Below are positions 4,868 through 63,815 of a DNA stretch of 64,000 bases, in pieces. The notes beneath the pieces are model-generated. The model saw only the letters and a list, made by a program, of their open reading frames with translations, made no database searches and was not told the DNA's origin. The stretch comes from Phycisphaerales bacterium (GTDB lineage: Bacteria > Planctomycetota > Phycisphaerae > Phycisphaerales > SM1A02). Made by a program: the position numbers and the translations under genes. How positions within the stretch are numbered: the stretch's first letter is position 1; every line of letters starts with the position of its first letter. The stretch is taken from positions 1-64,000 of the forward strand of contig JASMKH010000009.1 in assembly GCA_030749435.1 (NCBI GenBank), in the 5' to 3' direction.

Positions 4868-6748
4868 CTACTCCTCGCTGATCGTCTCGCGAAGCACTTC
4901 ATCGATGGTGGTTCGCCCGTCGAAGATGGACAGGAGGCCCGACTCACGGAGCGTCCGCATGCCGCGTTTGCGACACTCGGTTCTCAGCAGTGCGGTCGAC
5001 GCCTGCTTCATGATGAGTTCCCGAAGTGCGTCATCCATGGTCATAATCTCGAACAGGGCCAGCCGTCCCTTGTATCCACTGCCGTTGCAACTCTCGCACC
5101 CGGCTCCTCGGAAGAAAGACTGGCCCACGACGTCCTCGGGACGCAATTCCAGTTCCATGAGTTCCGATTCGCTCGGGGTGTACTGCTGCTTGCACTTCAG
5201 GCAGATCCGGCGGACCAGTCGCTGCGCCACGATCGCCTCAACCGTCGCCGTAATCAGGAACGACTCAACCCCGAGATCGATCATCCGGAGAACGGTCGAC
5301 GGCGCGTCGTTGGTGTGCAGCGTGGAGAATACGAGGTGCCCGGTGAGTGCCGCCTGAATGGCAATCTGAGCGGTCTCCAAGTCGCGGATTTCGCCGACGA
5401 GGATCGTGTCCGGATCCTGTCGAAGGAAGGATCGCAGCAGCCTCGCAAACGTCAGCTCCTGATCCGTGTTCACTTGGCACTGCACCAGACCGTCAATGTC
5501 GTACTCCACCGGATCTTCGGCGGTGAGAATCTTCGTGTCCGGTTCGTTGAGCGCGCTCAACGCCGCGTACAACGTGGTCGTCTTGCCCGAGCCGGTCGGA
5601 CCTGTGATCAGAACGACGCCATTGGGCCTCCGAATGAGTTCGTTCATCGTGCCCAGTTCGTCATCCCGGAGCCCGACACGATCAATCGCCAGTTCGACGT
5701 TGCTGCGGTCGAGCACACGCATCACGACCGACTCGCCGTACATGGTCGGCAGGACCGAGATACGCAGGTCGATGGGATTCCGATTCACCGTCAATTCAAT
5801 GCGGCCGTCCTGCGGCAACCGCCGCTCAGCAATGTCGAGGTTGGCCATGACCTTGATGCGGGACACGATTGGAAGGGCCAGATGCGGGGGCGGCGGAACC
5901 ATTTCGTAAAGCACGCCGTCGATGCGATACCGCATCCTGAACTCCTCCTCGAACGGTTCGAAGTGGATGTCACTGGCCTTGTCCTTGATGGCCTGCAGCA
6001 GAACGAGGTTCAGCAGCTTGACGACCTTGTTGTCCTCCGAGGCGGCGGCCAGTTGCTCAAGATCGATCGACTCGCCGCGGCCCTCCAACGCTGCAAGCGT
6101 GTCGGAGTCCTCCAGCGCCGCCATGACGTCAAGCATGGACGACCCGGCCTGCGTCGTGGATCCGTACAGTCGCTCGATGGCCGCCTCCACCGCTGAGGGA
6201 GGCGCCACGACGGCGTTGACCTTGAATCCCATCAGCAGACGCAGGTCATCGACCGCTCTGTAATTGTCAGCCGACTTCATGGCGATTGTGATCGCCCGAC
6301 GCTCCGAGTCGAAAGCCACAGGCACAATCTGATAGGTGCGGGCCGTCTCGGCCGGAAGGTGTTCGATCAGGGCCTCGTCGATCGAATCCGGGTCAAGCTC
6401 GATGAAGTCCAGGCCGATCTGACCGGCCAGGACCTGCAGCACATCCTGCTCGGTGATCTTGCCCAGTTCCTGAAGGATCTCACCGACCTTGTTCCGCTCC
6501 CCCTTCTGGGCCCGCCGCTTCTGAATCGCGAGGGCCTCGTGGACCTCCTCGCGGGTCAACTTCCCCAACTTGACGAGCACCCGGCCAAATCGCCGGCCCT
6601 TGAGCTCGGCCGCCGCACTGCCATCGCTCCGCCTGCGTCGCCGGGAACGGCTGGTACTGCTGCTGGAACGGGTTCGCGGCGCGGTGCCCGGCTGGGGCGT
6701 GCCCGCCGAATCGCTGCCAGCGCGCTCAGGTTGTTCTTTCTTGGACAC
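4868..6748 (-). CDS. Type II secretion / type IV pilus assembly ATPase (GspE/PilB family)
   Basis: Hexameric cytoplasmic ATPase powering pilus or pseudopilus extension. The order of parts is: a serine/arginine-rich N-terminal tail (residues 1-50), an MshEN-type N-terminal domain (about 55-220), and the catalytic domain. The catalytic domain has Walker A GPTGSGKTTTLYAA, the Asp box with EDPVEYDIDGLVQCQVN, Walker B ILVGEIRDLETAQIA and the His box HLVFSTLHTND. A four-cysteine zinc site (CLKCKQ...CESCNGSGYKG) is present, as in PilB/GspE. The 626-residue length is normal for the family once the tail is counted. It lies between pilT and pilC. A 180-bp gap upstream could hold a promoter. A paralogue lies at 8087-9835. 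Confidence 0.95.
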   Translation of the reverse strand: MSKKEQPERAGSDSAGTPQPGTAPRTRSSSSTSRSRRRRRSDGSAAAELKGRRFGRVLVKLGKLTREEVHEALAIQKRRAQKGERNKVGEILQELGKITEQDVLQVLAGQIGLDFIELDPDSIDEALIEHLPAETARTYQIVPVAFDSERRAITIAMKSADNYRAVDDLRLLMGFKVNAVVAPPSAVEAAIERLYGSTTQAGSSMLDVMAALEDSDTLAALEGRGESIDLEQLAAASEDNKVVKLLNLVLLQAIKDKASDIHFEPFEEEFRMRYRIDGVLYEMVPPPPHLALPIVSRIKVMANLDIAERRLPQDGRIELTVNRNPIDLRISVLPTMYGESVVMRVLDRSNVELAIDRVGLRDDELGTMNELIRRPNGVVLITGPTGSGKTTTLYAALSALNEPDTKILTAEDPVEYDIDGLVQCQVNTDQELTFARLLRSFLRQDPDTILVGEIRDLETAQIAIQAALTGHLVFSTLHTNDAPSTVLRMIDLGVESFLITATVEAIVAQRLVRRICLKCKQQYTPSESELMELELRPEDVVGQSFFRGAGCESCNGSGYKGRLALFEIMTMDDALRELIMKQASTALLRTECRKRGMRTLRESGLLSIFDGRTTIDEVLRETISEE

Positions 6749-34408: not shown

Positions 34409-35347
34409 CTAGCCCGACCAATTGCGGAGCGGACTGAGCACCCAGGACCCATTGCGGCGCCTCGCTTCACGGCGAAGCGCCTCGGCTGCGCCGATCGCCG
34501 TGCCAGAAACCGAATCGAGACCACGCACAAGGGCGTCCTTCCAACTCGCCCTGGTCAACCCGAGCCGCTCCAGTATCGAGGGAAGGCTGCGAGGGCTCGC
34601 GTGCTTGCCCGGCGTGACGGCCCGCGCCCACGCATCGACATGCTGGATATAGCCTCGATCCGTGAAACCCGGTATCGGCTGAAGGGCGATACGCGTCTTG
34701 GGCCTCCGGCCAGCAAGCGTCCTCGCTCGCTGTCCGATGGACCCGTGCTCTGTCTGCTCGATGCGTTCGACGATCCCGGCCCGCACAGCATTCAAGTCAA
34801 TGTACGTCGCCACGGCGGCGATCGCGGCTTCGTCAAGAACCGCGATACATCCAAAGCGACCTTCCCAGAAGTGACCGGTACAGTCATCCTCAGCGTTGGC
34901 ACGCCTGGCGATGGGCTCCTTGAGTTTGGCCATAAACCAGCTGACGCTTGAGAGACGCTTTCGGAGGACAGCGATGCGACCATCCTTCGCAAGAATCTCG
35001 TCAATCTCCTCCTCCGTCGGTTCGGAATCAATCGGAATACCGCGACGGCGTCTACGCCAGTTGCACGGGCAGATTCGCAGATACCGATCCGCGACCTCGC
35101 GATCGGTCCATCCCTTCACAATGTCAGGCCGAATGGCCAGCAGGATGTGCAGGTGATTGGAGAGGATCTCCCATGCGTAGACGTCGAGAGCCATGATCGA
35201 GACGAGCAACTCGAGCTGTCGCTGCAGCCAGTCACGACGATGATCGAAGCCATCGCCGCACAGGTGGGCTCGCCGGACACAGCGGCTGATGGTGTGGTAC
35301 ATGCCGGGTCGCTCTGGATCAACAACGGCCTTGCGCGGTGTCGGCAC
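34409..35347 (-). CDS. REP-associated tyrosine transposase (RAYT), Y1/HUH family
   Basis: Single-strand-specific nuclease related to IS200/IS605 TnpA, expected to cut and join at REP-like sequences. The N-terminal YHTISRCVRRAHLCGDGFDHR is the usual RAYT opening. The metal-binding HUH motif is NHLHILLAI. Near the middle FWEGRFGCIAVLDE and TYIDLNAVRAGIVE match the conserved (F)WE.RF and Y(I).LNPVRAG segments that contain the likely catalytic Tyr. The length of 312 aa is typical of the larger planctomycete/proteobacterial RAYTs. The start is a GTG at 35347. Ten 11-mer repeats flank it in inverted orientation, supporting the call. The gene is intact, so activity is possible. Confidence 0.92.
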   Translation of the reverse strand: MPTPRKAVVDPERPGMYHTISRCVRRAHLCGDGFDHRRDWLQRQLELLVSIMALDVYAWEILSNHLHILLAIRPDIVKGWTDREVADRYLRICPCNWRRRRRGIPIDSEPTEEEIDEILAKDGRIAVLRKRLSSVSWFMAKLKEPIARRANAEDDCTGHFWEGRFGCIAVLDEAAIAAVATYIDLNAVRAGIVERIEQTEHGSIGQRARTLAGRRPKTRIALQPIPGFTDRGYIQHVDAWARAVTPGKHASPRSLPSILERLGLTRASWKDALVRGLDSVSGTAIGAAEALRREARRRNGSWVLSPLRNWSG

Positions 35348-35390
35348 GGCGAGTCCTCCTGTGTGCTGATCCGCACCCTACGCGGTGATT

Positions 35391-35570
35391 CGGAGAACAA
35401 GCCAACGACTGCGGAAAGGCAGGTTGGTGGGTGTCCGATCTTGCGGCTGCCCGGAACGGTTGGTGGGTGTCCAGCGTTGCCGGAGAACAAGCCAACGACT
35501 GCGGAAAGGCAGGTTGGTGGGTGTCCGGTCTTGCGGCTGCCCGGAACGGTTGGTGGGTGTCCAGCGTTGC
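35391..35570 (+). repeat. Two 90-bp tandem repeats with two GGTGGGTGTCC each
   Basis: CGGAGAACAAGCCAACGACT begins copies at 35391 and 35481. They differ at a single base (35438 A, 35528 G), so the duplication looks recent. Being 30 codons long, the unit keeps the frame open and produces the false N-terminal extension in the ORF track of the tricorn gene. Confidence 0.93.
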
Positions 35571-51274: not shown

Positions 51275-53227
51275 TCACCGGACCAGCCGCCGCGTATAGA
51301 CGCCCCACTCGATCAGCAGCACCCCCAATGACGCCGCGATCGCCCATGGCCAGAGCGGCACGGGCCGCCCGACGCCAGTACCCACCGAAACCTGCACGCC
51401 GCCGATCCGAGTATCGGCGGTTCGCAGCAGTTGCCCCTCATCCTCCGAGGGCAGGTGCGCAGCGATCAACTGATGCCCGCCCTCCGCCCCGTCCCACACC
51501 ACCAGCCACGGGCCCGCCTCCTCCAGCGGCCCAAGTTGGGTGCTCCCTCGGCCCTCCGGAACCTGCAGCACGTGCTGCCTGCCGCCAGGCGACGTGGCCG
51601 TGATCCGCGTCACCGCAGGGGGAAGCGGCACGGTGACAACGTCGCCCGCGTCGGGCGGCTCGATGCCTCCCGCCTCACCACGGCGAGCCAACCAGTCGAT
51701 CGCATCCACAAGAAAGGTCACAAAGCTCTGGTCCCAGGGCCACGTGCTCCGGGCGGGATCAAACGCCACGTGAATCCGCCTGTGGCCTGCCTCCTCCCAT
51801 GCCACGACGAGCGGTCCGCCGACCCCCTCGAGCAGCACCTCCGCCACGCCGGTCACCTCGACACCTTGTGGATTGCTGACCCAGAGCGATCCTGGCGGTC
51901 CGCCACGAAGTACGGGGTGGCGAACCGACCCGGGAATGACCGAGTCGGAATCGCGTCTGGGCGTCCAGCGAAGGTGCTTCGATGGAAGCGGGGCGTCGAA
52001 CGACAACGTGGGCGTCTCCGGAAGCAGGTCGGGCGCCATGCCCGCCAGCACCATGACCTGGTGGTCTCCGAACTGCACCGCCTGACCATCTGCGGTATCG
52101 GCCGATCGAACGCTGGTTCGTCCCAGGCTCTTCATCGCGCGAACCATGAGTTTGGGATCCGGACCGTAGACCCCGATGCGGACATCCCCGGTCGGCGGCA
52201 CGACACACCAGTCCGCATCGTCGGCCACCAGCGCATCCGGATTCAGCAGCGACACCTCGACCAGCACTTCCTCGGGCCGGTCGAACGAGGTGAAGACGAG
52301 GTCCCGGACCCCCGGCTTGAAGTCCGCGCCCACTTCACCCCGGCCTGCAGGCAATGTGACATCTTCGATATGCACCGGTGTTCCATCAATCGACATCTGC
52401 ACCGTGGCCTCTGCCGGCGACGAGGACCAGTTCACGATTGACGCGAAGACCTGCACTTCATCGGGGTCGTCCGGAAGTCGCTCCGCCACCACCGACTGAA
52501 CGCTTCGATTGGGCGTATCACGACGGCCGACCAGGTGCACGACCAGCGGATCGCCACGTGTCACGACCTCGTCTCGGTCCACCAACCCGCCATCGGTGAA
52601 CAACTCGATCCGCGCCGGCTCGCCGAGTTCGCGAGGGTTGTCCGGATCGGGCTGGCTCGCCCACGCCCGCGCCATCGCCAGCCCCTCTGAGAGACGCCCT
52701 CGGGTATCGGCTGGCGTCAACCTCCGGATCGCCTCGAGCAGGGCGCGGCGTGAACTGGTGAACGGCTGTTCAATCTCAGCAGAGGCCCCCAGTGAAACGA
52801 TCATGGTCGAACCCCCCGAGTCTGCAAACCAACCGCCCGGATGCAGCCGATCGACGGCCCCTTCGGCCATTTCGAGGGCCTCTTCAAACCGTGATCTTCC
52901 ATCCGACCCGTCACGGGCCTTCATCGACGCGGATCGGTCGATCAGAAGCACCGTCCTGCCACCTCGGCCCGCGGCCGACTCGAACCGTGGCTGTGCCACG
53001 GCGAGCCCCACCAACAGGAGTGCCAACACCTGCAGGAGAAGCAGCAGACTGAGTCGCAGCCGCTGAAAGGGAACGTTGGCCTGAATGTCCTCGGCCGCCT
53101 CCATCCAGAGGTCGGCGCACGGGACAACCTGCCGCGCTCTGCGCAGCCGGAGCAGGTAGAGCGCCAGCAGCACCGGAACCAGCGCAAGCAGCAGCCAGAA
53201 CGCAGACCACGGCGTGAACAGGGTCAT
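51275..53227 (-). CDS. BatA-like membrane protein with VWA domain
   Basis: The BatA N-terminal double-helix module is evident: FTPWSAFWLLLALVPVLLALYLLRLRRARQVV and, near residue 65, LLLLLQVLALLLVGLAVA. A von Willebrand A domain follows with intact MIDAS VLLIDRSASMKARDG (DxSxS). The long remainder, to residue 620, contains beta-rich segments; a C-terminal membrane helix (PLWPWAIAASLGVLLIEWGVYTR) closes the protein. Length 650 aa. BatA/VWA, DUF58 and MoxR proteins are normally co-operonic and are thought to act together in stress, metal handling or chaperone-like insertion. The preceding gene overlaps by four bases. Confidence 0.87.
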   Translation of the reverse strand: MTLFTPWSAFWLLLALVPVLLALYLLRLRRARQVVPCADLWMEAAEDIQANVPFQRLRLSLLLLLQVLALLLVGLAVAQPRFESAAGRGGRTVLLIDRSASMKARDGSDGRSRFEEALEMAEGAVDRLHPGGWFADSGGSTMIVSLGASAEIEQPFTSSRRALLEAIRRLTPADTRGRLSEGLAMARAWASQPDPDNPRELGEPARIELFTDGGLVDRDEVVTRGDPLVVHLVGRRDTPNRSVQSVVAERLPDDPDEVQVFASIVNWSSSPAEATVQMSIDGTPVHIEDVTLPAGRGEVGADFKPGVRDLVFTSFDRPEEVLVEVSLLNPDALVADDADWCVVPPTGDVRIGVYGPDPKLMVRAMKSLGRTSVRSADTADGQAVQFGDHQVMVLAGMAPDLLPETPTLSFDAPLPSKHLRWTPRRDSDSVIPGSVRHPVLRGGPPGSLWVSNPQGVEVTGVAEVLLEGVGGPLVVAWEEAGHRRIHVAFDPARSTWPWDQSFVTFLVDAIDWLARRGEAGGIEPPDAGDVVTVPLPPAVTRITATSPGGRQHVLQVPEGRGSTQLGPLEEAGPWLVVWDGAEGGHQLIAAHLPSEDEGQLLRTADTRIGGVQVSVGTGVGRPVPLWPWAIAASLGVLLIEWGVYTRRLVR

Positions 53228-54165
53228 CGCAGCAACCCTCCGCGGCGAAGTTCATCGAGCAGCAGTGACTCCACGTCCGAATCACTCGGGATCGCAAGAT
53301 GAGCGCCTCCGCTGCGGCGGGCCGCATCACGCACAAGCGCGACGCGGGCATCGAGTTTCGCCCGGTATGCCCGGAGCAGTGCGGGCGTCACCGTGACCTC
53401 TCGGGTCGATCCATCCTCGGCATCTTCAAGTCGGAGATCACCTGCCAGTCCGCAGGCCCCCGGATCAAGTTCCTGTGGACTGAGAATCTGCAGGCAGTGC
53501 AGGTCATCACCACCACCGCCGAGAAGTCGCATCGCCGGAAGCGGGTCGCCCTCACCGAGGAAGTCGCTCAGAATCACGACGACGCCGCGGCCCCGCCTCG
53601 TGGGTGCCAGCATGCGAACACCCGACTCGAACGTCTCACCACCATCGGCACCGGCGATCTCTCGGCCCAGCAACCATCGACCCAGTTCCGCCGTTCGGCT
53701 TCTTCCACGCAGGTCCCTGAGGTGATTGACGCCATGGCTGTCCCACGTCGCCACGCTCAGGCGATGTCTGGAGGCGAGCGAAATGCTGCCGATCGCCATC
53801 GCCACGCGTCTGGCGAAGTTCCACTTGGCAGGTGCGCCCCAGTCCATCGAAGGAGTGGCGTCGAGCAGCAGCAGCACACTCAGGTCCTCCTCGTCGAGAT
53901 AGAGCTTCAGAAAGAGGGCGTCGAGCCGCGCATAGACGTTCCAATCCACGTACCTCAGGTCATCCCCGGCGACATAGGGGCGGTAGTCGGCAAAGTCGAT
54001 GCTGAACCCGCGTCGGCGACTGCGGCGCTCGCCATGCAACTTGCCAGCGAGCACCTTCTTCGAAGTGATTTCGAGTCCCTCCATCGCAGCGAGCAGGCGA
54101 GGTCCGAGGAGGTCCTCGATGGACTCGGGCGGAGGCGCGGGATCGGTGCCGAAGCCGTGAATCAT
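53224..54165 (-). CDS. DUF58 domain protein
   Basis: Cytoplasmic VWA-like protein of the BatA/MoxR system. GERRSRRRGFSIDFADYRPYVAGDDLRYVDWNVYAR is the DUF58 signature (normally R..G.G.EF...R.Y..GD..R.IDW....R). VLLLLDATPSMDWG is a MIDAS-like region. Length is about 313 aa from ATG 54165 (MIHGFGTDPAPPP), whose start overlaps the MoxR stop (ATGA). It overlaps the BatA-like gene at its end. Function is unknown beyond the association with MoxR ATPases. Confidence 0.9.
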   Translation of the reverse strand: MIHGFGTDPAPPPESIEDLLGPRLLAAMEGLEITSKKVLAGKLHGERRSRRRGFSIDFADYRPYVAGDDLRYVDWNVYARLDALFLKLYLDEEDLSVLLLLDATPSMDWGAPAKWNFARRVAMAIGSISLASRHRLSVATWDSHGVNHLRDLRGRSRTAELGRWLLGREIAGADGGETFESGVRMLAPTRRGRGVVVILSDFLGEGDPLPAMRLLGGGGDDLHCLQILSPQELDPGACGLAGDLRLEDAEDGSTREVTVTPALLRAYRAKLDARVALVRDAARRSGGAHLAIPSDSDVESLLLDELRRGGLLR

Positions 54166-55196
54166 CGCAGGCACTCCTCCGCTGGCGTGGGAACATCCTC
54201 AAGCAGTTTGGCGACGAGATCGTCGGCGGTGAGTCCATGGCCTCGGCCTTCGGGACCAGGCGCCAGACGATGCCGCAGACAGTTGCCCGCCACACTTCGT
54301 ATGTCGCTGCACGAGACCGCGAGCCGACCGGCGGTCATGGCCGCCACCTGCGCGGTCCGCCTCAAGGCGATTGCAGCCCGCGGGCTGCACGGCGCCGCGG
54401 CATACCTCCCGACGTCCCCGGACGCGGTGCCCAGCACAAGCGCCGCAATCCAGTCGTTGACATGCGGCGCCACGAGGATGCGACGACTCAGCAGCGAGGC
54501 CTGCTCAAGAAACACGCCGTCGATGGTTGGTCTGATGTTGGGACGTTCCGGAGCGGTCGTCTTCTCGATGATGCCCTCCAGCACTTCTGCCTCGGGGGGA
54601 TGCACGTTGATCTGCATGAGGAAACGATCGATCTGCGCTTCGGGAAGCCGATGGGTGCCTTCCTGCTCGATTGGATTCTGGGTCGCCAGCACGATGAATG
54701 GTCTTGGAAGGTCATGGCTGAGTCCCGCCACGGTCACCCGCCGCTCCTGCATCGCTTCAAGCAGCGCGGATTGCGTGCGAGGAGACGCTCGGTTGATTTC
54801 ATCAGCCAGTACCAGTTGGTGGAAGATCGGCCCGGGACGAAAGACGGTGCCGCGCGTTCCCCCTCGCCCCTCGGCCATGACGGTCGTGCCGGTGATGTCC
54901 GCCGGCATGAGGTCGGGCGTAAACTGAATCCTCCCCACATCGAGGCCGGTTGCAGCTGCCACGGTTCGGACCAACAGCGTCTTGCCCGTTCCGGGAACGC
55001 CCTCCAGCAGCGCATGCCCATCTGCCATGAGGCAGCCCAGTACCGCATCCACCACATCCTCCTGCCCGAGCACCGCGGAGGCAATCTCCCCTCGCAGCGC
55101 CGCGATGCCTTGCCGAATACGGTCCACCGCATCGACGACGCCGGCTGCGTCACCAGGATCGCCATTCGGAGGCGGCATGAGGCGGCCGCTGGTCAT
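54162..55196 (-). CDS. MoxR-family AAA+ ATPase
   Basis: AAA+ ATPase with Walker A LLEGVPGTGKTLLVRTVA, Walker B LVLADEINRASPRTQSALLEAMQE, sensor-1 FIVLATQNPIEQEGTHRLPEAQIDRF and the arginine finger region of MoxR. FTPDLMPADITGT is the characteristic MoxR sequence. Length 344 aa. It is co-transcribed with the DUF58 and VWA genes by ATGA overlaps. MoxR ATPases activate or assemble metal or redox enzymes in other bacteria; a substrate cannot be named here. Confidence 0.93.
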   Translation of the reverse strand: MTSGRLMPPPNGDPGDAAGVVDAVDRIRQGIAALRGEIASAVLGQEDVVDAVLGCLMADGHALLEGVPGTGKTLLVRTVAAATGLDVGRIQFTPDLMPADITGTTVMAEGRGGTRGTVFRPGPIFHQLVLADEINRASPRTQSALLEAMQERRVTVAGLSHDLPRPFIVLATQNPIEQEGTHRLPEAQIDRFLMQINVHPPEAEVLEGIIEKTTAPERPNIRPTIDGVFLEQASLLSRRILVAPHVNDWIAALVLGTASGDVGRYAAAPCSPRAAIALRRTAQVAAMTAGRLAVSCSDIRSVAGNCLRHRLAPGPEGRGHGLTADDLVAKLLEDVPTPAEECLR

Positions 55197-58069
55197 TGGG
55201 AGTCATCCTTGTCGCGAAGCCGCCGACGCACCTCCCGCAGCCGCTCCAAAGTGGTTTCCGCTTCGGCCTCGTCCGCCTTCGGTGGAGATGTGTCAGGCTC
55301 GGGCGGTGCGGGGGTGCGGGTTGATGCCCGCCGCTGCTTCGCCGCCGACCGGACGCGCTTCCACGCCGCGCCCGTTGTCGCTGCAGCGGCCGCCGTCCCC
55401 TCGGCTGCGCGGCGGGCGAGCACTTCACGCCGCTGCCGATCAGGGACGATCCGCCGAACTGCCACGTCGACGAGCAGCAATGCCGCGGCAATCATTGCCA
55501 GCACAGCCCAGGCGCTTCGACGGCTGGAGGCATTGTCCAATCCCGCCCGCTCGAAGATCACCGCCTCGTCTGGAGCGGTGTCAGTGGAAAGCACCCGCCC
55601 CCCACTTCGAGTTGCAGCTTCTCGAAGCAGGGACTCGTGACTGCTGATTACGGCGTCCTCCTCAGCCCAGTTGCGCACGACCGCGCCCTGTACCCAGCCT
55701 TCGATCGGCGCGCCGGTCTCCGGATCCGCACCACGGTGACGCACCGCAACAACCCAGCCGCCGGGCTCCGTCATCGTGAACACGCCCTGATAGCGGCCCG
55801 GTCCGACCTGCCGCATGTTCAAAGGTGCCGAGACGCCGCCCGGACCGAGTACGGCTGCATCGGTCTGCAGGAAATTGGAGAACGCAGCGCCCCCATGGGT
55901 CCCTCCGTCGGTGGCCTCCAGTTCGACGACCACTTCGCCGTCATCACCTTCACGAAGGTTCAGTACATGACGATCGTCATCACCCGGGCGGCGGAGCCAC
56001 GAGAGCACCCGCTTCCAGAGCGTGGATGCCCCGCTCCATGCGGACCAGGATTCTGTCCAGAGATTGCCTACGTCGCTGGTGAAAACCACCACCCGACCGA
56101 GTCCATGAAACCACCATGCGAGAATCGGATCGGACTGGCCATTGTTTGGGACGAGCATGCCGTCGACCGCGAGCCCTCCGAGCGGCTCGGTCAGCACATA
56201 CCCCTCAATCGGCGGCGGGGTGCCGAGGTTCGCCATCAGGTCCGCCGGTAGTGGACCCCCTGGCGGCCCCCCCCAGTTCGGCTGAACCAACCCCGCCTGG
56301 ATCAACGATCGAGAGACAACCTGCGCTTCCTCGATGAAGATCTGGGGAAGGTCCAACGGACTCGTGACGTCGTAGAATCGCCCGCCGGTGACCGTCGCGA
56401 TCGCCGACATCCTCCGGCGATCGGTCGGCGTCCCGTGGCCGCCAACCATGACCGTCGTCACCGTGATCGCCTCGGCGACGCACTGCTCAAGAAGCTCGCT
56501 GCCCGGAGGCTGGGGATCGCCATCGGAGATGATGATCATGTGCCGCTGCCCGGCCTCCACCCCGACAATCCCGTCAATCGCCAGCTCCATGGACGGCACG
56601 AACGAAGGCATGTCTCCGTACTTCAGGCTGCCAGCGGCACGCATCGCCTTGGACTTATCTCCGGCAAGTTGCATCGGAAGCGCCCAGATCGAGTCGCCTG
56701 CGCGATTGTCGTACTCGACCATTCCAACGTAGTCGACGCTCGACAGCGCATCGATGGCCGCTTCAGCGACCCGCCTGCCCCAGAAGTTGCCCTGCGGCAT
56801 CTCGCACGAGTGCAGAACCAGCGCCAAGGCCCCCCGTCGAACCTGGCGTTCTGCTGGCGGATCCAGACCGACCGGCAGCACGCCCGCCACAGACGAACCG
56901 ATCCACCCACCGGCGCCGAGTGCCGTTGGGCCTCCGGTCACAAGCAGGCCGCCACCACCATCTCGAACCCACTGCGCCAACTCACCGTCGACGTGGTCGG
57001 GGATCGCCCACCGGGGCAGATTGACCAGCACGATGGCGTCCCAGGCAGCCAGCGCCGTAGGGCCCCCGTGCAGGGCCTCGACGCCCGCCTGCCGCACCTC
57101 GGCCCCTGAAGATGCCAACAGCGATGCGAGCGCCGCGGTTTCATCCGGCGATTCGGCAACGAGCAGGACGCGACCTCGCCCGGAGACGAGTGACACGGCA
57201 GCCGCGCGGTTGTTTGACGCGATGACGTCGCCGCTTGCTGCGGCGGGCTCGAACAAGGCCTCGATTCGCTGCGTGTCGCTGGAACTGGCCGGGAGCGTCA
57301 TCGGAATGACCGAGACGCCTCCCTCCAGGGAGAGGTCGATTCCTTCCGACACCGGCATGCCGTCCTGCAGCAGCACCAGGCGGCCGCGCGCAGGTCCCTC
57401 GCTCCTCATGACAACCCGCAGCGGCACTGATTCCCCCGGCCTGATCTGACGAGGCGCCACGAGGCGCTCGACCATCACTTCGCCGGTTCGCACGTACGTC
57501 ACTGGCAGCACATCGATCGGAATGCCCGCATCCCCTGCGGTCTGAGCTGCCTTGAGAAGCGAACCGGTGGTTTCGTTCCCGTCGCTCACCAGGAGGATGC
57601 GGTGGGTCCCCCCGTCCGGGAGCAGTCCCTTGGCAAACTCGACCGCGCGGGCGAGATCGGTGGCATCGAACGACCCGCTCGCCGCCCCCAGCGACACGAC
57701 GCCGTCGGCATCGGGCATCAGGACAGCCCGCGCATCCCGGCCTGCGTCGACAAGGGCGATGAAGTCGGATTCGCCACGCTCGACGGTCGCGTCCTGAATC
57801 CACCGCACCGCGGCGGCAAGCCCCGCCTGATCCATGGATCTGCTCCGGTCCAGGACCACGGCCACCGTCTGTTGGTCGCTGCGGCGATCAAGTACCGGGT
57901 CGGCCAGCGATGCGACCAGCGCGATGATCAGCAGGCATCGCAACAGCGGAATGACCAGGCCCCGAATGGGCCCAAGCGACATCCTCGCGCCCCGCGACCA
58001 CCAGAGCACGGGAACGAGCAGGACGAGAAGCACCAGCCATCCCGGATGTTCAAACTGCATCAGGGCCAA
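55193..58069 (-). CDS. Large membrane protein with VWA, GATase-1-like and second VWA-like domains
   Basis: Predicted BatA/CatA-type protein of 958 aa. Two N-terminal membrane helices (HPGWLVLLVLLVPVLWWSRG and LLRCLLIIALVASLADPVL) precede a VWA domain with an intact MIDAS, VVLDRSRSMDQAG. A segment near residues 280-390 resembles glutamine amidotransferase class 1 folds (DAIVLVNLPRWAIPD and GLLVTGGPTALGAGGW). A second VWA-like region begins at LALVLHSCEMPQGN, where the MIDAS Asp is lost, then MIIISDGDPQPPGSELL. One more membrane helix lies near residue 865, before the MoxR gene. The start may also be ATG 58060. It heads the MoxR/DUF58/VWA set. Confidence 0.85.
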   Translation of the reverse strand: MALMQFEHPGWLVLLVLLVPVLWWSRGARMSLGPIRGLVIPLLRCLLIIALVASLADPVLDRRSDQQTVAVVLDRSRSMDQAGLAAAVRWIQDATVERGESDFIALVDAGRDARAVLMPDADGVVSLGAASGSFDATDLARAVEFAKGLLPDGGTHRILLVSDGNETTGSLLKAAQTAGDAGIPIDVLPVTYVRTGEVMVERLVAPRQIRPGESVPLRVVMRSEGPARGRLVLLQDGMPVSEGIDLSLEGGVSVIPMTLPASSSDTQRIEALFEPAAASGDVIASNNRAAAVSLVSGRGRVLLVAESPDETAALASLLASSGAEVRQAGVEALHGGPTALAAWDAIVLVNLPRWAIPDHVDGELAQWVRDGGGGLLVTGGPTALGAGGWIGSSVAGVLPVGLDPPAERQVRRGALALVLHSCEMPQGNFWGRRVAEAAIDALSSVDYVGMVEYDNRAGDSIWALPMQLAGDKSKAMRAAGSLKYGDMPSFVPSMELAIDGIVGVEAGQRHMIIISDGDPQPPGSELLEQCVAEAITVTTVMVGGHGTPTDRRRMSAIATVTGGRFYDVTSPLDLPQIFIEEAQVVSRSLIQAGLVQPNWGGPPGGPLPADLMANLGTPPPIEGYVLTEPLGGLAVDGMLVPNNGQSDPILAWWFHGLGRVVVFTSDVGNLWTESWSAWSGASTLWKRVLSWLRRPGDDDRHVLNLREGDDGEVVVELEATDGGTHGGAAFSNFLQTDAAVLGPGGVSAPLNMRQVGPGRYQGVFTMTEPGGWVVAVRHRGADPETGAPIEGWVQGAVVRNWAEEDAVISSHESLLREAATRSGGRVLSTDTAPDEAVIFERAGLDNASSRRSAWAVLAMIAAALLLVDVAVRRIVPDRQRREVLARRAAEGTAAAAATTGAAWKRVRSAAKQRRASTRTPAPPEPDTSPPKADEAEAETTLERLREVRRRLRDKDDSQ

Positions 58070-58079
58070 TGCTACTGCG

Positions 58080-60518
58080 CTATCGGCCGGGAGGATCCTT
58101 CGCCGCAGAATCGGTCGAACCCAGCGCCCCTCGAGGCACGGTCATGATGCGTGCATTCCCGGTGTCAAGCACGTGAACGGCATCGTGCGCCGCGTCATAG
58201 CAGACGCCCCAAGGCATCCGAAGCCTGCCCGCCGCCGCGCCCCAGCCACCCCAGAGCCCAAGCGGCGTGCCTGTGGCGGACCATCGGGACAATCGATGCA
58301 ACCCGTACTCCGTGACAACGATGCTCCCGTCGGGGAGGGCCGCGACACCGTAGGGGTAACGCAAGTGTCCCTGCCCAATGACCGCCAACACGGCGCCCGT
58401 CGCAGGGTCGATCCCCTGAATGCGATGGTTGCCCGAGTCGGCGACCCACAGCACCGACCCGTCGAGCGAGAACGCGAGCGACTGTGGACGGTGAAACTGG
58501 CCCGGCTCGGAGCCCGGAGACCCGATACTCCGAATCACGTGACCCGCGGCATCGAAGACCTGCACGCGGTCGTTCCCGCCATACTCTGACACGAACCACG
58601 CCCCGCCAGGGCTCACCGCCACGTCGGTCGGGTAGATGAACTCGCCGGGACCCGTGCCATAGCGTCCGAAGGTTCGTACCAACGTGCCGCAGCGGTCGAA
58701 GACCGTGACCCGGTACTCGTGCGTATCGGCGACCGCCACCCCTTCGTCGAAAACGCCCAATCCGGTCGGCTTCCCGTTGTCCCATGCAGGCATGGTCCAG
58801 AGGCAATCGACCTCGCCGCCTCGCAATCGCTGTACCCGCGCAGACTTGTCCACCACGTACACCGCACCCTCGGCGTCAACAGCAATGGCCCGCGGCGTAT
58901 CGAATCGCCCGGGCGCCCGGCCCGGCAGCCCAGTCACTGAGGCGTGGGGCACCGGCGGATCCGCCTCCCCTGTTGTCTCGGTACCGCACGCGGGAATCAG
59001 CACGAGAATTGCCAGCATCGACGCGACGGAGACGCCACGTGATCCACAACGCAGCAGGACGCGGATTCCCAGGCAGGACGCGACCGCTGCGGCCGCAATC
59101 CACGCCAACAACCTGACGACGGAGTCCGGGCGTTGATAGTGAATCGCGTTGAGCATCGTCGTCGCAAGCGGCGGGTGTCGCATCGGAGGTGCCAGCGAAG
59201 CGGCGAGACTGATGTCAGTCATCGCCATCGTCATCGCGACGAGACCGGCGCCCAGCATGCCCGCGCTCACGACCGGGCTCAGGTGCCACCATGCCGCGGC
59301 ATCGATCGCCCGAAGCGACCGGTCCGCATCGGACTGCGTGCGATGGATCCAGCGAGCGGTCAGCACCGCGACAGCGCCGCCGCGTACCAGAAGGCCCAGC
59401 GTCCACGCCCCGCCACTGTTCATCACCACGCCCCCGAAGGCGCCCCGCCAACCGGCAGCGACCGCCGCGCCGATGAGCGGCGCGGGAAGCAGCGCCGCAG
59501 CAACCCAGGTCCACCCCGCCACATTGGCCAGACGACTCTTCCAGACGCCGCGTGTTGCCGCGACCAGAGCAGCTGAAACTGCGCCGACCAGAAGCGAGCG
59601 GGCCAAAGCGGTCCCGACGGCTGGCCAGACGAGAAGCCCTTCACCGGGTTGCACCCGTATCCACATGAAGCCCACAAGCACCAACGGCGCACCGACCAGC
59701 AGCCCGAAGAGCACCATCGCGACGATCGCGGCACCACGAGAGACGGCAGCGGGCGCCAGCCGCTGCGGCGCCGGCCGCCCAACCCAGATCCACAGCACAC
59801 CGGCACCAAGCACAGCCGCGGTGGCAAGTGGCAGGCTCGCAGCAACCAGTGCGCCGCCCGAGGCACCGAGATCCCCTCGAGCCCTGAGTTCATTGGCGAT
59901 CGTGAAGACGCCCGCCAGATCGAAGGCGGTCGTGCATCCCGCGGTCAAGAGAAGCGTCACGATCGAGGCAACCACGACGCCTGCCCGCTCGGTTCGCAGC
60001 CGCGCTCCCTGGCGCCGCCACCATGAGGCGCCGTCAAGGCGCATGGACTCCGATCGATCGCGCGTCCACCGCATGCATACGGGCAACAGACAGCACACCG
60101 CAACCGGCCAGGTCCAGGACACCATGGCCACCCCCAGCACCCCCCGCCGCAACATGCCGACATCTCCGTTGGACACGGCGAGTTCGTGGAGCCAACTGCC
60201 TGGCGGCATGATGGACCACCACGTGTAGTACACGGCCCACGGTGGCAACAGCAAGCCGACCAGCAACCAGGCAGCGAGCCATGCAAGCCGGTTGGATGGC
60301 TGGCTGGCGAGGTATCGCGCCGCCGGCACCGCAGCGACGACGGCGGCTGCGGCGACGCCGGCTGACCAGCACAGGGTCACCCACAGCAGCGACCAGGCGT
60401 CATGCAACGGGCCGGCGTGGGGCGCATCCGGGGCACCGCCGGGCCGCAACAACAGCGACACCGCGGGCCAGCCGACGACGATGAACCAGATGGCCGCAAA
60501 GATCGCCTTACCGACCAC
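58080..60518 (-). CDS. ABC permease fused to a C-terminal NHL beta-propeller through a lipobox
   Basis: One open frame joins two unlike parts. Residues 1-490 hold about twelve hydrophobic helices like a double MetI-type (FbpB/ThiP) metal or thiamin permease, with PAARYLASQ and APLIGAAVAAGWRG. From residue 494 a hydrophobic segment ends in the lipobox LVLIPAC at Cys 511. Residues 515-812 are NHL repeats (DTPRAIAVDAEGAVYVVDKSARVQRL, IYPTDVAVSPGGAWFVSEYGGNDRVQVFD, HRPQSLAFSLDGSVLWVADSGNHRIQ). I place the start at GTG 60518, preceded by GGGGAGGGG, 11 bases into the upstream gene. The track start 60587 is possible. No stop or frameshift separates the halves. Confidence 0.8.
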   Translation of the reverse strand: MVGKAIFAAIWFIVVGWPAVSLLLRPGGAPDAPHAGPLHDAWSLLWVTLCWSAGVAAAAVVAAVPAARYLASQPSNRLAWLAAWLLVGLLLPPWAVYYTWWSIMPPGSWLHELAVSNGDVGMLRRGVLGVAMVSWTWPVAVCCLLPVCMRWTRDRSESMRLDGASWWRRQGARLRTERAGVVVASIVTLLLTAGCTTAFDLAGVFTIANELRARGDLGASGGALVAASLPLATAAVLGAGVLWIWVGRPAPQRLAPAAVSRGAAIVAMVLFGLLVGAPLVLVGFMWIRVQPGEGLLVWPAVGTALARSLLVGAVSAALVAATRGVWKSRLANVAGWTWVAAALLPAPLIGAAVAAGWRGAFGGVVMNSGGAWTLGLLVRGGAVAVLTARWIHRTQSDADRSLRAIDAAAWWHLSPVVSAGMLGAGLVAMTMAMTDISLAASLAPPMRHPPLATTMLNAIHYQRPDSVVRLLAWIAAAAVASCLGIRVLLRCGSRGVSVASMLAILVLIPACGTETTGEADPPVPHASVTGLPGRAPGRFDTPRAIAVDAEGAVYVVDKSARVQRLRGGEVDCLWTMPAWDNGKPTGLGVFDEGVAVADTHEYRVTVFDRCGTLVRTFGRYGTGPGEFIYPTDVAVSPGGAWFVSEYGGNDRVQVFDAAGHVIRSIGSPGSEPGQFHRPQSLAFSLDGSVLWVADSGNHRIQGIDPATGAVLAVIGQGHLRYPYGVAALPDGSIVVTEYGLHRLSRWSATGTPLGLWGGWGAAAGRLRMPWGVCYDAAHDAVHVLDTGNARIMTVPRGALGSTDSAAKDPPGR

Positions 60519-61539
60519 CGAGCGGCGCCCCTCCCCACGCGGTCGCGGCTGCAGCGACGGCGTCCTGAGCATTGGACTCGACGGCATCGATGTCCAGCAG
60601 GAGCGGCGATGCGATCAGCAGATCGGGGAACTCCGAGGCCACCGACTCCTGAAGGGGGATGTTCCCGGAGACCGAGCTCGCCAGCATGCGGGCGGTGTGG
60701 TCCGACAGGAGCCAGTCCGTCAGTGCCGCCGCTTCGCTCGGATGCGGCGCCCCCTGCAGAATGGCCACGGTGTTTGGCATCACCATCGGTCCGCCGCCAG
60801 CAACGGGGGCATGGCCGGGAATCACCATGGCAAGCTTTGCCCCGGTCCGATTCGCTGCCCGTACATCGTCGGCGTCGGTCGCTCCGAGCAGTGCTTCGCC
60901 CCGCCGAACCGCGTCGACCACCGCCGCATTCCCGCCAGGAAGCATCCGCACGCCGCCAGCCCGCATGTCCGCAACCCAGTTCGCGTACGACTCCGGTCCC
61001 GCGAGCCACCGCATCGCCGCCAGATGGCCGCCGGTGGTTCCGAATCTCGGGTCCGCAAACACCACCTCCCCGGCCCACCGAGGGTCGGGCAGGTCGAACC
61101 ACGAATCGGGCAGGTCGTCACGATCGATCCGGCGAGGATCAAACACCAGCACGCGGGGTCGTGGCGAGAACGCGTGCCACTCGTGGTTGGGCGAGCGCCA
61201 TGCTTCGGGCCACGCCGTGGTAACCGGCGACACGTGGGGCGCCAACAGGCCTTCGTCCAGAAGCGCCTCGGTCCCGATCGCTTCTGACGACCAGAGTACG
61301 TCTGCCACACCATGGCCCCGCTCGGCGCGCAGGCGGTCAAGCAACCCCGTGGTCTTCCTCGCTTCGGTGTCCCCCACCATCAGGACGCGGATTCCGGTCT
61401 CAGACTCGAATCGCCTGAGTATCGGCAACGCAATCGCTTCATCGGTCGACACGTACACGACCACCTGCCGCTCGCGTCGCAGGCATCCCCCCAGCATCAC
61501 GACGCCGACCAGACCGATCGTCAGCCAACGCGCACTCAC
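60508..61539 (-). CDS. Lipoprotein extracellular solute-binding protein (FbpA/ThiB-like)
   Basis: The N-terminus MSARWLTIGLVGVVMLGGC is a lipoprotein signal with lipobox MLGGC. The mature protein begins VVVYVSTDEAIALPILRRFE and continues FESETGIRVLMV, typical of iron or metal-binding ABC receptors (VY.S.d....p.l..FE..tGikv). VLWSSEAIGTEALLDEGLLA, ANWVADMRAGGVRMLPG and GNAAVVDAVRRGEALLGATDADDV also match that family. Length 343 aa. The permease-NHL gene follows; no ABC ATPase is nearby. The ligand (ferric iron, other metal or thiamin) cannot be told from sequence. Confidence 0.87.
   Translation of the reverse strand: MSARWLTIGLVGVVMLGGCLRRERQVVVYVSTDEAIALPILRRFESETGIRVLMVGDTEARKTTGLLDRLRAERGHGVADVLWSSEAIGTEALLDEGLLAPHVSPVTTAWPEAWRSPNHEWHAFSPRPRVLVFDPRRIDRDDLPDSWFDLPDPRWAGEVVFADPRFGTTGGHLAAMRWLAGPESYANWVADMRAGGVRMLPGGNAAVVDAVRRGEALLGATDADDVRAANRTGAKLAMVIPGHAPVAGGGPMVMPNTVAILQGAPHPSEAAALTDWLLSDHTARMLASSVSGNIPLQESVASEFPDLLIASPLLLDIDAVESNAQDAVAAAATAWGGAPLGGR
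60527..60536 (-). promoter_or_regulatory. Strong ribosome-binding site for the permease-NHL gene
   Basis: GGGGAGGGGC on the minus strand lies about nine bases before GTG 60518, inside the end of the solute-binding-protein gene. It supports a coupled GTG start over the longer ATG frame in the track. Confidence 0.6.
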
Positions 61540-63206
61540 GGCTGTTCTGGTTCCGCGTGTTCGGGTGGGGCGGGCTTCGGCTCGGCGGCCTGTCCGGTCT
61601 CAGCCGGACGCGAGGCAAACCATGCGGCAACTGCCTCGCGGTACCGCTTGGGAATGCGCCGGACATCAACCCCCTCGGCCGCGCGCCGTTTGGCCTCGAG
61701 GATCCGCGGCCCGACGGCCTGCCCGATTCCACCGCCCCGGATGGGTCCCGCTACGGGCGAGGCAGCCACGACGGCGGCGGACCGATCGATTGCAGTGTCG
61801 GCCCTTGTTGCCACCCGAGAGGTCTCCTCGGATGTACCAGGGTTGCCACGGCCACCACCCCTTGGCGACATGCCGCCGGGACCGGGCCTGGAACCACTCG
61901 ATGCGTTGGCAGCTGCCCCTCGACACGCCGACCTGCACGCAGAAGCCTGGTCCGATTGGCGTTGACACTTGGCGAGCCCCTGACATTGCGACTTCGTCGA
62001 ATTGCCCCGCTCCTTGCTGGGGTTCCGGCATTGACTCGCGGCCGACTGGCACTCACTGGCGAGCCCCTCCACGGCTTTGGAACCGGCGCACTCCGAATTG
62101 AGCAACCGCTTCAGCTCCTCTTTCTGGGCAGGGCTGAGGTTCTTGGACGCGTCGATCTTCTTTTCAAGACGCGGCAGATCGTCGAGGTCGGCCGGATCCA
62201 GTCCCGCAGCGCGTACCGCGGCCGCCGCTGCATCTTCGGCCTCGGCGGCGTTCTGAAGATCCTGAGCCAGGGCCTCAAGCGCCGCAGCGCGATCGGCAGC
62301 ATCGGACTCAGCGCCGGCCTGAAGCGACTCGAGTGCGGCTTGGGCAGCCTCGAAGTCCCCCGCCGTCAGCGCACGGCGCAACGGCGTCGCGGCATCACCA
62401 CTTCCAGTGGGCAGCGATCGAAGTCGCTCCCGAACCCGCTCGAGCGTCGCTTGCTCAGGCGAGACATTGAACTCGTCCAGCCGGCGGTTCACCGCCGTCA
62501 ATCGCTTGATGGCCTCCTGGCGAATCTGCTCGGGTGTCGTGAGATCATCCGGAATCTCAAGGTCAAGGTCCCCACCAACTTCCTCAGCAAGGTCAGGAGC
62601 GTTGGCGAGGGCATCTCGCACCGACTTGAGCATCTCGTCTGTGTTCAACTGTGTCTGAGCCAACGCGCGAGGATCCGCCGGAGGCGGCGATGCGCCCAGC
62701 GGGGGCAACCAGGCCACAACGATCGCCGCAATCGCCAGTGGAGCCGGCCACCACCAGCGACGTGGAACGGCCATCGGAACGGCGGCGGACACACCGCGGC
62801 GGACGCGAGGATGGTCAGCGAGCGTGGCGGCGGCGGCCCGCTGCGCGGCGCAGACCGGACTCGAGGAGTCCTCCTCGAAGGCCATGGCCGTAGAGAATGC
62901 GTCGTTGAGTCCCAGCCGTTCGTCCAGCACGATGGCAGCGGACTGGCGGCTCACAGCGACCCATGGAGCCACGATCACCAACGCGCCACCGATTGCGACC
63001 ACCAGCCACATCACGATCCAGCCCCAGGGAAGGGCAGCCCCACCTGCCAGAAAGGCCCATGCAGCCGTGACGAATGCCGCGCCAGCGGCCACGGTGGCCA
63101 GCACACACAACGCATCGATCAGCAGATTCAAGGTCAGCCGGCGGGCGGCCCGCCTGATCAGGCCGACAACCCTGCGATTGTGCTGATTGGTCGAAGACGA
63201 CGCCAT
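61536..63206 (-). CDS. Membrane protein of unknown function with helical, Cys/Gln-rich C-terminal region
   Basis: Two hydrophobic helices near the N-terminus (LLIDALCVLATVAAGAAFVTAAWAF and WGWIVMWLVVAIGGALVIVAPWVAV) and a third around residue 155 (WWWPAPLAIAAIVVAWLPPLG) anchor the protein. Residues 190-380 are charged, alanine-rich and predicted helical. A Cys/Gln/Ser-rich segment follows at about 385-445 (ECQSAASQCRN and KSQCQGLAKCQRQSDQASAC), then a Gly/Pro-rich linker and a basic helical end (KRYREAVAAWFASRP). No domain was recognised; planctomycete genomes carry similar proteins beside VWA/BatA genes. The stop overlaps the solute-binding-protein start (ATGA). Confidence 0.7.
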   Translation of the reverse strand: MASSSTNQHNRRVVGLIRRAARRLTLNLLIDALCVLATVAAGAAFVTAAWAFLAGGAALPWGWIVMWLVVAIGGALVIVAPWVAVSRQSAAIVLDERLGLNDAFSTAMAFEEDSSSPVCAAQRAAAATLADHPRVRRGVSAAVPMAVPRRWWWPAPLAIAAIVVAWLPPLGASPPPADPRALAQTQLNTDEMLKSVRDALANAPDLAEEVGGDLDLEIPDDLTTPEQIRQEAIKRLTAVNRRLDEFNVSPEQATLERVRERLRSLPTGSGDAATPLRRALTAGDFEAAQAALESLQAGAESDAADRAAALEALAQDLQNAAEAEDAAAAAVRAAGLDPADLDDLPRLEKKIDASKNLSPAQKEELKRLLNSECAGSKAVEGLASECQSAASQCRNPSKERGNSTKSQCQGLAKCQRQSDQASACRSACRGAAANASSGSRPGPGGMSPRGGGRGNPGTSEETSRVATRADTAIDRSAAVVAASPVAGPIRGGGIGQAVGPRILEAKRRAAEGVDVRRIPKRYREAVAAWFASRPAETGQAAEPKPAPPEHAEPEQP

Positions 63207-63284: not shown

Positions 63285-63815
63285 TCAGGTGCCTCCGCCT
63301 GCCGAGCGGCGAAAAGCCACCCAGCCAAACCCGGCCCCCGCGCCCAGCAGGACAATGGCAAGACCGCCCGAAACCAGCGTCCACCATGCCATTGACGGCG
63401 TCGGATCCGGTCCGACCGCAATGAGCGGTGCCTGCCCGCCATCGGCCAATCGGATGGCCCAAGTGCCGGCAGTCGCATCGAACGTCCCGATGACCGTACC
63501 AGCCCTGCTGGGCTCGGCGTATCGGATGATCTGGGTCGCAGGCACCAACGGTCGCAGTTCGCCATCCGGGCCAACGAGGTTCAGGTCGGAAGCGGCGATA
63601 AGCGATCCGGTCCGTTCCATACCGCCAAGGACCGAGCGGGTCTCGCACGCAACGACCCACACACCTGGGTCAGCGACCTCGAACCGCGCTTCATCCTGGA
63701 CCTCGCAGGTGTGAAGGTCGAAGGACGCAATCGACCCAATGGTGCCCGCCAGCAGCACGAGCATCGCCGCAACACAGCAGCCCACCGCCACCCAACCCAG
63801 TTGGCGGCGAGTCAC
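63285..63815 (-). CDS. Small double-pass membrane protein of unknown function
   Basis: GTG start at 63815 overlaps the upstream DHHA1 stop (GTGA). The 176-aa protein has one helix at each end (GWVAVGCCVAAMLVLLAGTIGSIA and WWTLVSGGLAIVLLGAGAGFGWVAF), with a beta-rich region between them containing FDLHTCEVQDEARFEVADPG and TVIGTFDATAGTWAIRL. No family is recognised. It lies 78 bases upstream of the previous entry on the same strand. Confidence 0.7.
   Translation of the reverse strand: MTRRQLGWVAVGCCVAAMLVLLAGTIGSIASFDLHTCEVQDEARFEVADPGVWVVACETRSVLGGMERTGSLIAASDLNLVGPDGELRPLVPATQIIRYAEPSRAGTVIGTFDATAGTWAIRLADGGQAPLIAVGPDPTPSMAWWTLVSGGLAIVLLGAGAGFGWVAFRRSAGGGT

Follow-up and report, generated by a model that had tools for sequence, protein, structure and literature searches.

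Described systems of comparable layout

FbcH, the cytochrome b/c1 polyprotein of Bradyrhizobium, consists of a polytopic protein with an internal signal after it, where the precursor is cut to give two proteins. Its cleavage depends on signal peptidase I and involves no lipid. Among importers, FbpB (PDB 9j4r, FbpBC of Thermus thermophilus) represents the two-halved type I permease of 12 transmembrane segments (TM), and its gene lies next to that of a solute-binding protein (SBP). The importer OpuA is built from a TMD, an anchoring helix, an 11-aa linker and an extracellular domain (PMC11065425). In the MoxR-vWA beta-propeller ternary systems the propeller occupies the C-terminus of the vWA protein, and the P-loop of MoxR often reads GXXXTAKS (PMC7159879). 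Finally, stand-alone NHL lipoproteins occur in Planctomycetia; their genes immediately precede VWA-MoxR genes, and in most of the proteins the lipoprotein signal is N-terminal.

The gene considered here lies in a window of 64,000 nucleotides, the whole stretch of DNA that was analysed. It shares with FbcH a polytopic part and an internal signal, although the proteins are unrelated and a different peptidase is proposed. FbpB is the best match in both sequence and fold and has the same permease type and an adjacent SBP gene, but the fused locus holds no ATPase gene, its EAA motif is eroded and a C-terminal lipoprotein has been added. Like OpuA, the product combines a permease, an extra hydrophobic segment, a short linker and a predicted extracytoplasmic domain. 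However, the OpuA domain binds substrate and no lipobox has been described for it, whereas here an NHL propeller follows an invariant lipobox and substrate binding is assigned to a separate SBP gene. The Planctomycetia lipoproteins belong to the same propeller family, but they are encoded separately from the permease, in some cases with the gene of an ABC ATPase in between. As in the ternary systems, MoxR, VWA and propeller occur in one neighbourhood; the propeller is, however, a separate lipoprotein part, Pfam detects no propeller in either VWA protein of the window, and the window MoxR has the P-loop GVPGTGKT instead of GXXXTAKS, so that membership in those systems was rejected. Literature searches on FbcH, on polytopic proteins with an internal lipobox and on the operon described here returned nothing on point.

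One reading frame for permease, signal and propeller

The fused gene and its neighbours are arranged as follows.

63285..63815, minus strand: 176-aa protein whose N-terminal segment is hydrophobic, encoded upstream in the operon (ORF, operon comparison)
61536..63206, minus strand: 556-aa membrane protein (TM556), conserved operon member (operon comparison)
60508..61539, minus strand: SBP, SBP_bac_6 / PhnS-like, with its own lipobox MLGGC (Pfam, homology)
58080..60518, minus strand: fused gene, FbpB-like permease, internal lipoprotein signal and NHL propeller (one frame; 89 non-redundant fused homologues)
55193..58069, minus strand: VWA / GATase1-like membrane protein, 958 aa, next downstream (Pfam, operon comparison)
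54162..55196, minus strand: MoxR AAA+ ATPase (AAA_3 2e-58)
53224..54174, minus strand: DUF58 protein (Pfam)
51275..53227, minus strand: BatA-type VWA membrane protein (Pfam)

The frame extends on the minus strand from 60587 to 58080 and keeps 835 codons open between an ATG at 60587, from which the residues of the fused protein are numbered here, and a TAG stop at 58080-58082. Judged by its context, the likeliest start is the GTG at 60518, which had already been put forward in the first-pass annotation and is plausible: GGAGG stands 10 nt upstream, and the GTG overlaps the stop of the SBP gene. The same annotation had described a permease passing into a lipobox and then into NHL repeats within one ORF, with a product that is either cut or left tethered, and this description agrees with the ORF, domain and lipobox analyses, both in its domain order and in the two outcomes that the sequence suggests. 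Across the junction the protein reads IRVLLRCGSRGVSVASMLAILVLIPAC534GTE, and no stop interrupts it.

The propeller is well defined.

58128..58940, minus strand: six-bladed NHL beta-propeller, residues 550-820 (Pfam, PDB, Foldseek)

Pfam recognizes the NHL family with 1.3e-22 and the PDB comparison finds 6d69 with 1.1e-40; the repeats form the six blades of an NHL beta-propeller, and Foldseek and profile searches liken it to the NHL domains of Thin and TRIM71. The model of the full-length fused protein reaches a mean pLDDT of 89.7 but loses confidence at 532-540.

It had been suggested that homologues with the same domain order be sought, and these exist throughout the class Phycisphaerae, at 26-72% identity and mostly in uncultured bacteria. 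At least part of the fused protein is matched in 55 of the 61 genomes searched, in many over the whole fused length, while scanning GTDB genomes added 80 loci, almost all from Planctomycetota. Both searches together yield 95 fused loci (89 non-redundant). Some search rows list a stop within the match; the junction itself is open in the loci inspected. Homologues that are always two separate genes had been named as an outcome that would speak against the fusion, and the homologues are instead mostly fused.

A permease with an eroded coupling motif

The N-terminal portion of the fused protein contains three features of interest.

59052..60518, minus strand: permease part, residues 24-512, 12 TM, predicted N-in/C-in, fold of the ferric importer FbpB (profile, model, loop charges)
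59988..60050, minus strand: first coupling loop (EAA position), residues 180-200, with LDG (D185) (alignment of fused and unfused permeases)
59253..59324, minus strand: second coupling loop (EAA position), residues 422-445, EAA eroded, here AIDAAA (same alignment)

The permease profile matches PDB 9j4r_A with an E-value of 1.7e-13, and the permease model (pLDDT 84) finds the same structure in Foldseek (E 4.8e-9, TM 0.72/0.74), which corresponds to the 2 x 6 TM fold of type I ABC importers of the FbpB family. Pfam reports no permease family (BPD_transp_1) in the window protein or in the 33 members of alignment A1, and BPD_transp_1 matches 13 of 20 proteins in alignment A3 (best 9.3e-9). Loop charges alternate across the 12 TM; the permease is inferred to insert N-in/C-in, and the alternation implies that the propeller should lie outside.

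The coupling loops set the fused permeases apart. In a comparison whose ATPase-bearing group is distant and whose Fisher test takes related sequences to be independent, the full EAA...G motif of the second loop is found in 1/56 fused permeases versus 10/12 unfused ones with an adjacent ATPase gene, and an aspartate precedes the glycine in 47/56 (loop 1) and 42/56 (loop 2) fused permeases versus 0/12 of the latter. The split permeases of Phycisphaerae, which have no ATPase, likewise show the full motif in 0/4 cases. The alignments suggest that the EAA coupling motif has disappeared from the fused permeases and that a conserved LDG has arisen in them. Because of this erosion and of the new motif, the fused permease would no longer be driven by a standard ABC ATPase, and the loss of the coupling motif therefore makes the label 'transporter' uncertain for the product.

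The cognate ATPase expected of an ABC importer locus is also missing: no ABC ATPase gene was found in the fused operons of the window and its relatives. In the phylum survey unfused permeases occupy ORFs of about 500-690 aa and stop shortly after TM12. Four Planctomycetia loci (L207, L209, L214 and L217) have the order permease, ABC ATPase, propeller, with VWA next in three of the four within the sequence covered. Because these four operons hold the ATPase gene between permease and propeller, the fusion probably arose in a Phycisphaerae ancestor in which loss of that gene would have joined the permease to the lipoprotein.

It could be argued that the fused permease is still an ordinary importer of the ferric or phosphonate type, borrowing an orphan FbpC-like ATPase encoded elsewhere. 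Such a borrowed partner would compete only with the functional part of our interpretation and is compatible with cleavage. It would account for the retention of an SBP beside the permease, a PhnS-like one, and relatives do hold orphan FbpC-like ATPase genes, next to parB and other unrelated genes. Nevertheless, these orphans also occur where the fusion is absent, none was found in the window's own 84%-complete genome (one MalK-type ATPase only), and the EAA motif is eroded, so that a borrowed ATPase is less likely than not. No single best ATPase partner is named, since the operon ATPases and the orphan ATPases of Phycisphaerae fall in neighbouring groups with long branches.

Another ABC-component fusion occurs in the same genome (L192:7358-9721, minus strand, G000:C56), where a 787-aa ORF, read by eye as a solute-binding protein plus a MalF-like permease, adjoins a MalG-like gene and a MalK ATPase.

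The internal lipoprotein signal and its predicted processing

Between permease and propeller the following elements can be recognized.

58989..59051, minus strand: internal lipoprotein signal peptide, residues 513-533, 13th hydrophobic segment, predicted in-to-out (sequence, loop charges)
58986..58997, minus strand: lipobox I531-P532-A533-C534 (Cys in 95/95 fused loci)
58941..58985, minus strand: linker, residues 535-549 (model confidence lowest at 532-540)

The lipobox is preceded by R513 and R517 and by a hydrophobic stretch, that is, by the basic n-region and the h-region of a lipoprotein signal, but in the fused form this signal is internal, after 12 TM, instead of N-terminal in the precursor. 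The loop before it carries a charge of +2.7 and the region after it one of -1.0. In the AlphaFold model TM12 and the signal run together in a single long helix of low confidence, a point against the processing proposed below. The lipobox cysteine has G/A/S at -1 in 95/95 fused loci (four of these were missed by a strict filter and checked by eye), and in 91/91 cases the nearest K/R sits 13-24 residues before it. C534 is invariant in the aligned fused homologues of alignments A1 (33) and A2 (56); across the 56 aligned fused proteins, the only invariant positions before residue 545 are P115, H483 and C534. As C534 is invariant while residues 490-533 have a mean conservation of 0.36, the predicted lipobox is more than chance, and the conserved cysteine, the G/A/S at -1 and the upstream basic residue favour processing of the predicted signal.

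We favour, with a probability of roughly 0.65, a natural polyprotein, encoded in a MoxR-VWA operon, in which a predicted Lgt/LspA cut would separate a membrane module derived from the permease from a propeller anchored by lipid. The 13th hydrophobic segment would act as an internal signal and export the propeller, Lgt would lipidate C534, and LspA would then cleave before this residue, so that the membrane protein derived from the permease and a periplasmic propeller with a lipid anchor would result in equal amounts.

By analogy with OpuA, the product might instead stay in one piece, with an uncut anchor helix holding the propeller to the permease; the conserved cysteine could even be lipidated yet left uncut. 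The succession of TMD, helix, linker and extracellular domain in OpuA (PMC11065425) offers a precedent, and the fusion has been retained in most lineages, in family f4 even outside the operon. A plain anchor, however, needs no lipobox, yet cysteine and G/A/S at -1 are found in every fused locus, and several lineages have split the gene without losing either part. Permanent tethering is thus unlikely.

The enzymes that the proposed cleavage would require are widespread, with LspA in 57 and Lgt above the cut-off in 52 of the 61 genomes. The 84%-complete genome to which the window belongs yielded neither, probably on account of its gaps, because the same-genus genomes G001, G002, G007 and G008 have both. 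More of an argument against the cut is G030 (L041, L078; 2.0 Mb, 91% complete), where no Lgt or LspA is detectable and the fused gene nevertheless keeps the lipobox LLVSC.

Two products could also result from a second translation start just upstream of the signal peptide. Some in-frame ATG exists at 54/89 junctions, but a start codon with a Shine-Dalgarno sequence (SD) is present at only 8/89 (9%), no commoner than in background windows (8.6%), whereas start and SD are found near 28-78% of real operon-gene starts. The window itself offers only a TTG at -40; the ATG at 59018 (M524), noted earlier as lacking a visible ribosome-binding site and showing none on inspection, comes too late and would give a signal without positive charge. 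Internal initiation is therefore unsupported and very unlikely. An assembly or sequencing error concealing a stop or frameshift between two genes, the other objection raised in the first-pass annotation, has a negligible chance and was rejected, because the fused frame, although read here in a draft of 58 contigs (84% complete), recurs in 89 non-redundant sequences that come from many different assemblies, one of them a genome in a single contig.

Split and stand-alone forms

Planctomycetia encode the propeller in a gene of its own, which as a rule immediately precedes the VWA genes; these proteins mostly carry an N-terminal lipoprotein signal, and two signals appear Tat-like by eye. Splits are also found within Phycisphaerae (L155, L174, L180, L184, L077 and L045), where each propeller has its own signal. 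Taken together, nearly all stand-alone and split propellers have an ordinary N-terminal lipoprotein signal. The propeller tree groups all fused forms in a single clade (SH-aLRT 99) that also holds scattered separate members, while 13 separate rows form the outgroup. L051 and L157 appear separate in the tree solely because their contigs end there. The topology fits one early fusion followed by several later splits.

Some loci depart from these patterns. The Planctomycetia propeller of L217 (near 4874-6442, minus strand) has a hydrophobic N-terminal segment that lacks a lipobox cysteine, a membrane anchor and not a lipoprotein signal. Two loci of the Phycisphaerae clade, L185 and L191, keep propeller and VWA genes, and no permease was found in the sequence covered. 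At L151:5656-10716 a single 1687-aa ORF combines the permease with a partial match to the propeller and covers the position of the VWA gene, possibly as a triple fusion, possibly as a deletion or assembly artefact.

Association with the MoxR-VWA operon

The gene order TM556, SBP, fused gene, VWA, MoxR, DUF58, BatA is kept in most genera. In family f4 (L073, L075, L083, L034, L036 and L039) the fused gene lies outside the MoxR-VWA operon, and the three loci read have neither SBP nor ATPase nearby. The eroded EAA motif and the new LDG suggest that the permease, together with SBP and propeller, may form the membrane and sensor part of the neighbouring MoxR-VWA system; this is the weakest step of the interpretation, and we give it slightly less than an even chance. 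More tentative still is the combined picture of a class-wide polytopic precursor cut internally by LspA and an ATPase-less permease within a MoxR-VWA machine, in which LDG would have replaced EAA as the docking motif for another partner.

If correct, the proposed processing would provide a clear, class-wide case in which a lipoprotein signal functions within a polytopic protein, with a bearing on substrate recognition by Sec, Lgt and LspA, and signal-peptide searches confined to N-termini may miss such internal cases. The loci would also offer natural before and after stages of an ABC permease losing its ATPase, in which the fate of the coupling motif and a possible repurposing are directly testable, and would connect the MoxR-VWA operons, which are poorly understood, with a module derived from a transporter.

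Elsewhere in the window (35147-35500, plus strand), a large protease-like ORF shows repeats of ENKPTTAERQVGGCP when its 5' part is translated, probably a non-coding repeat read through.
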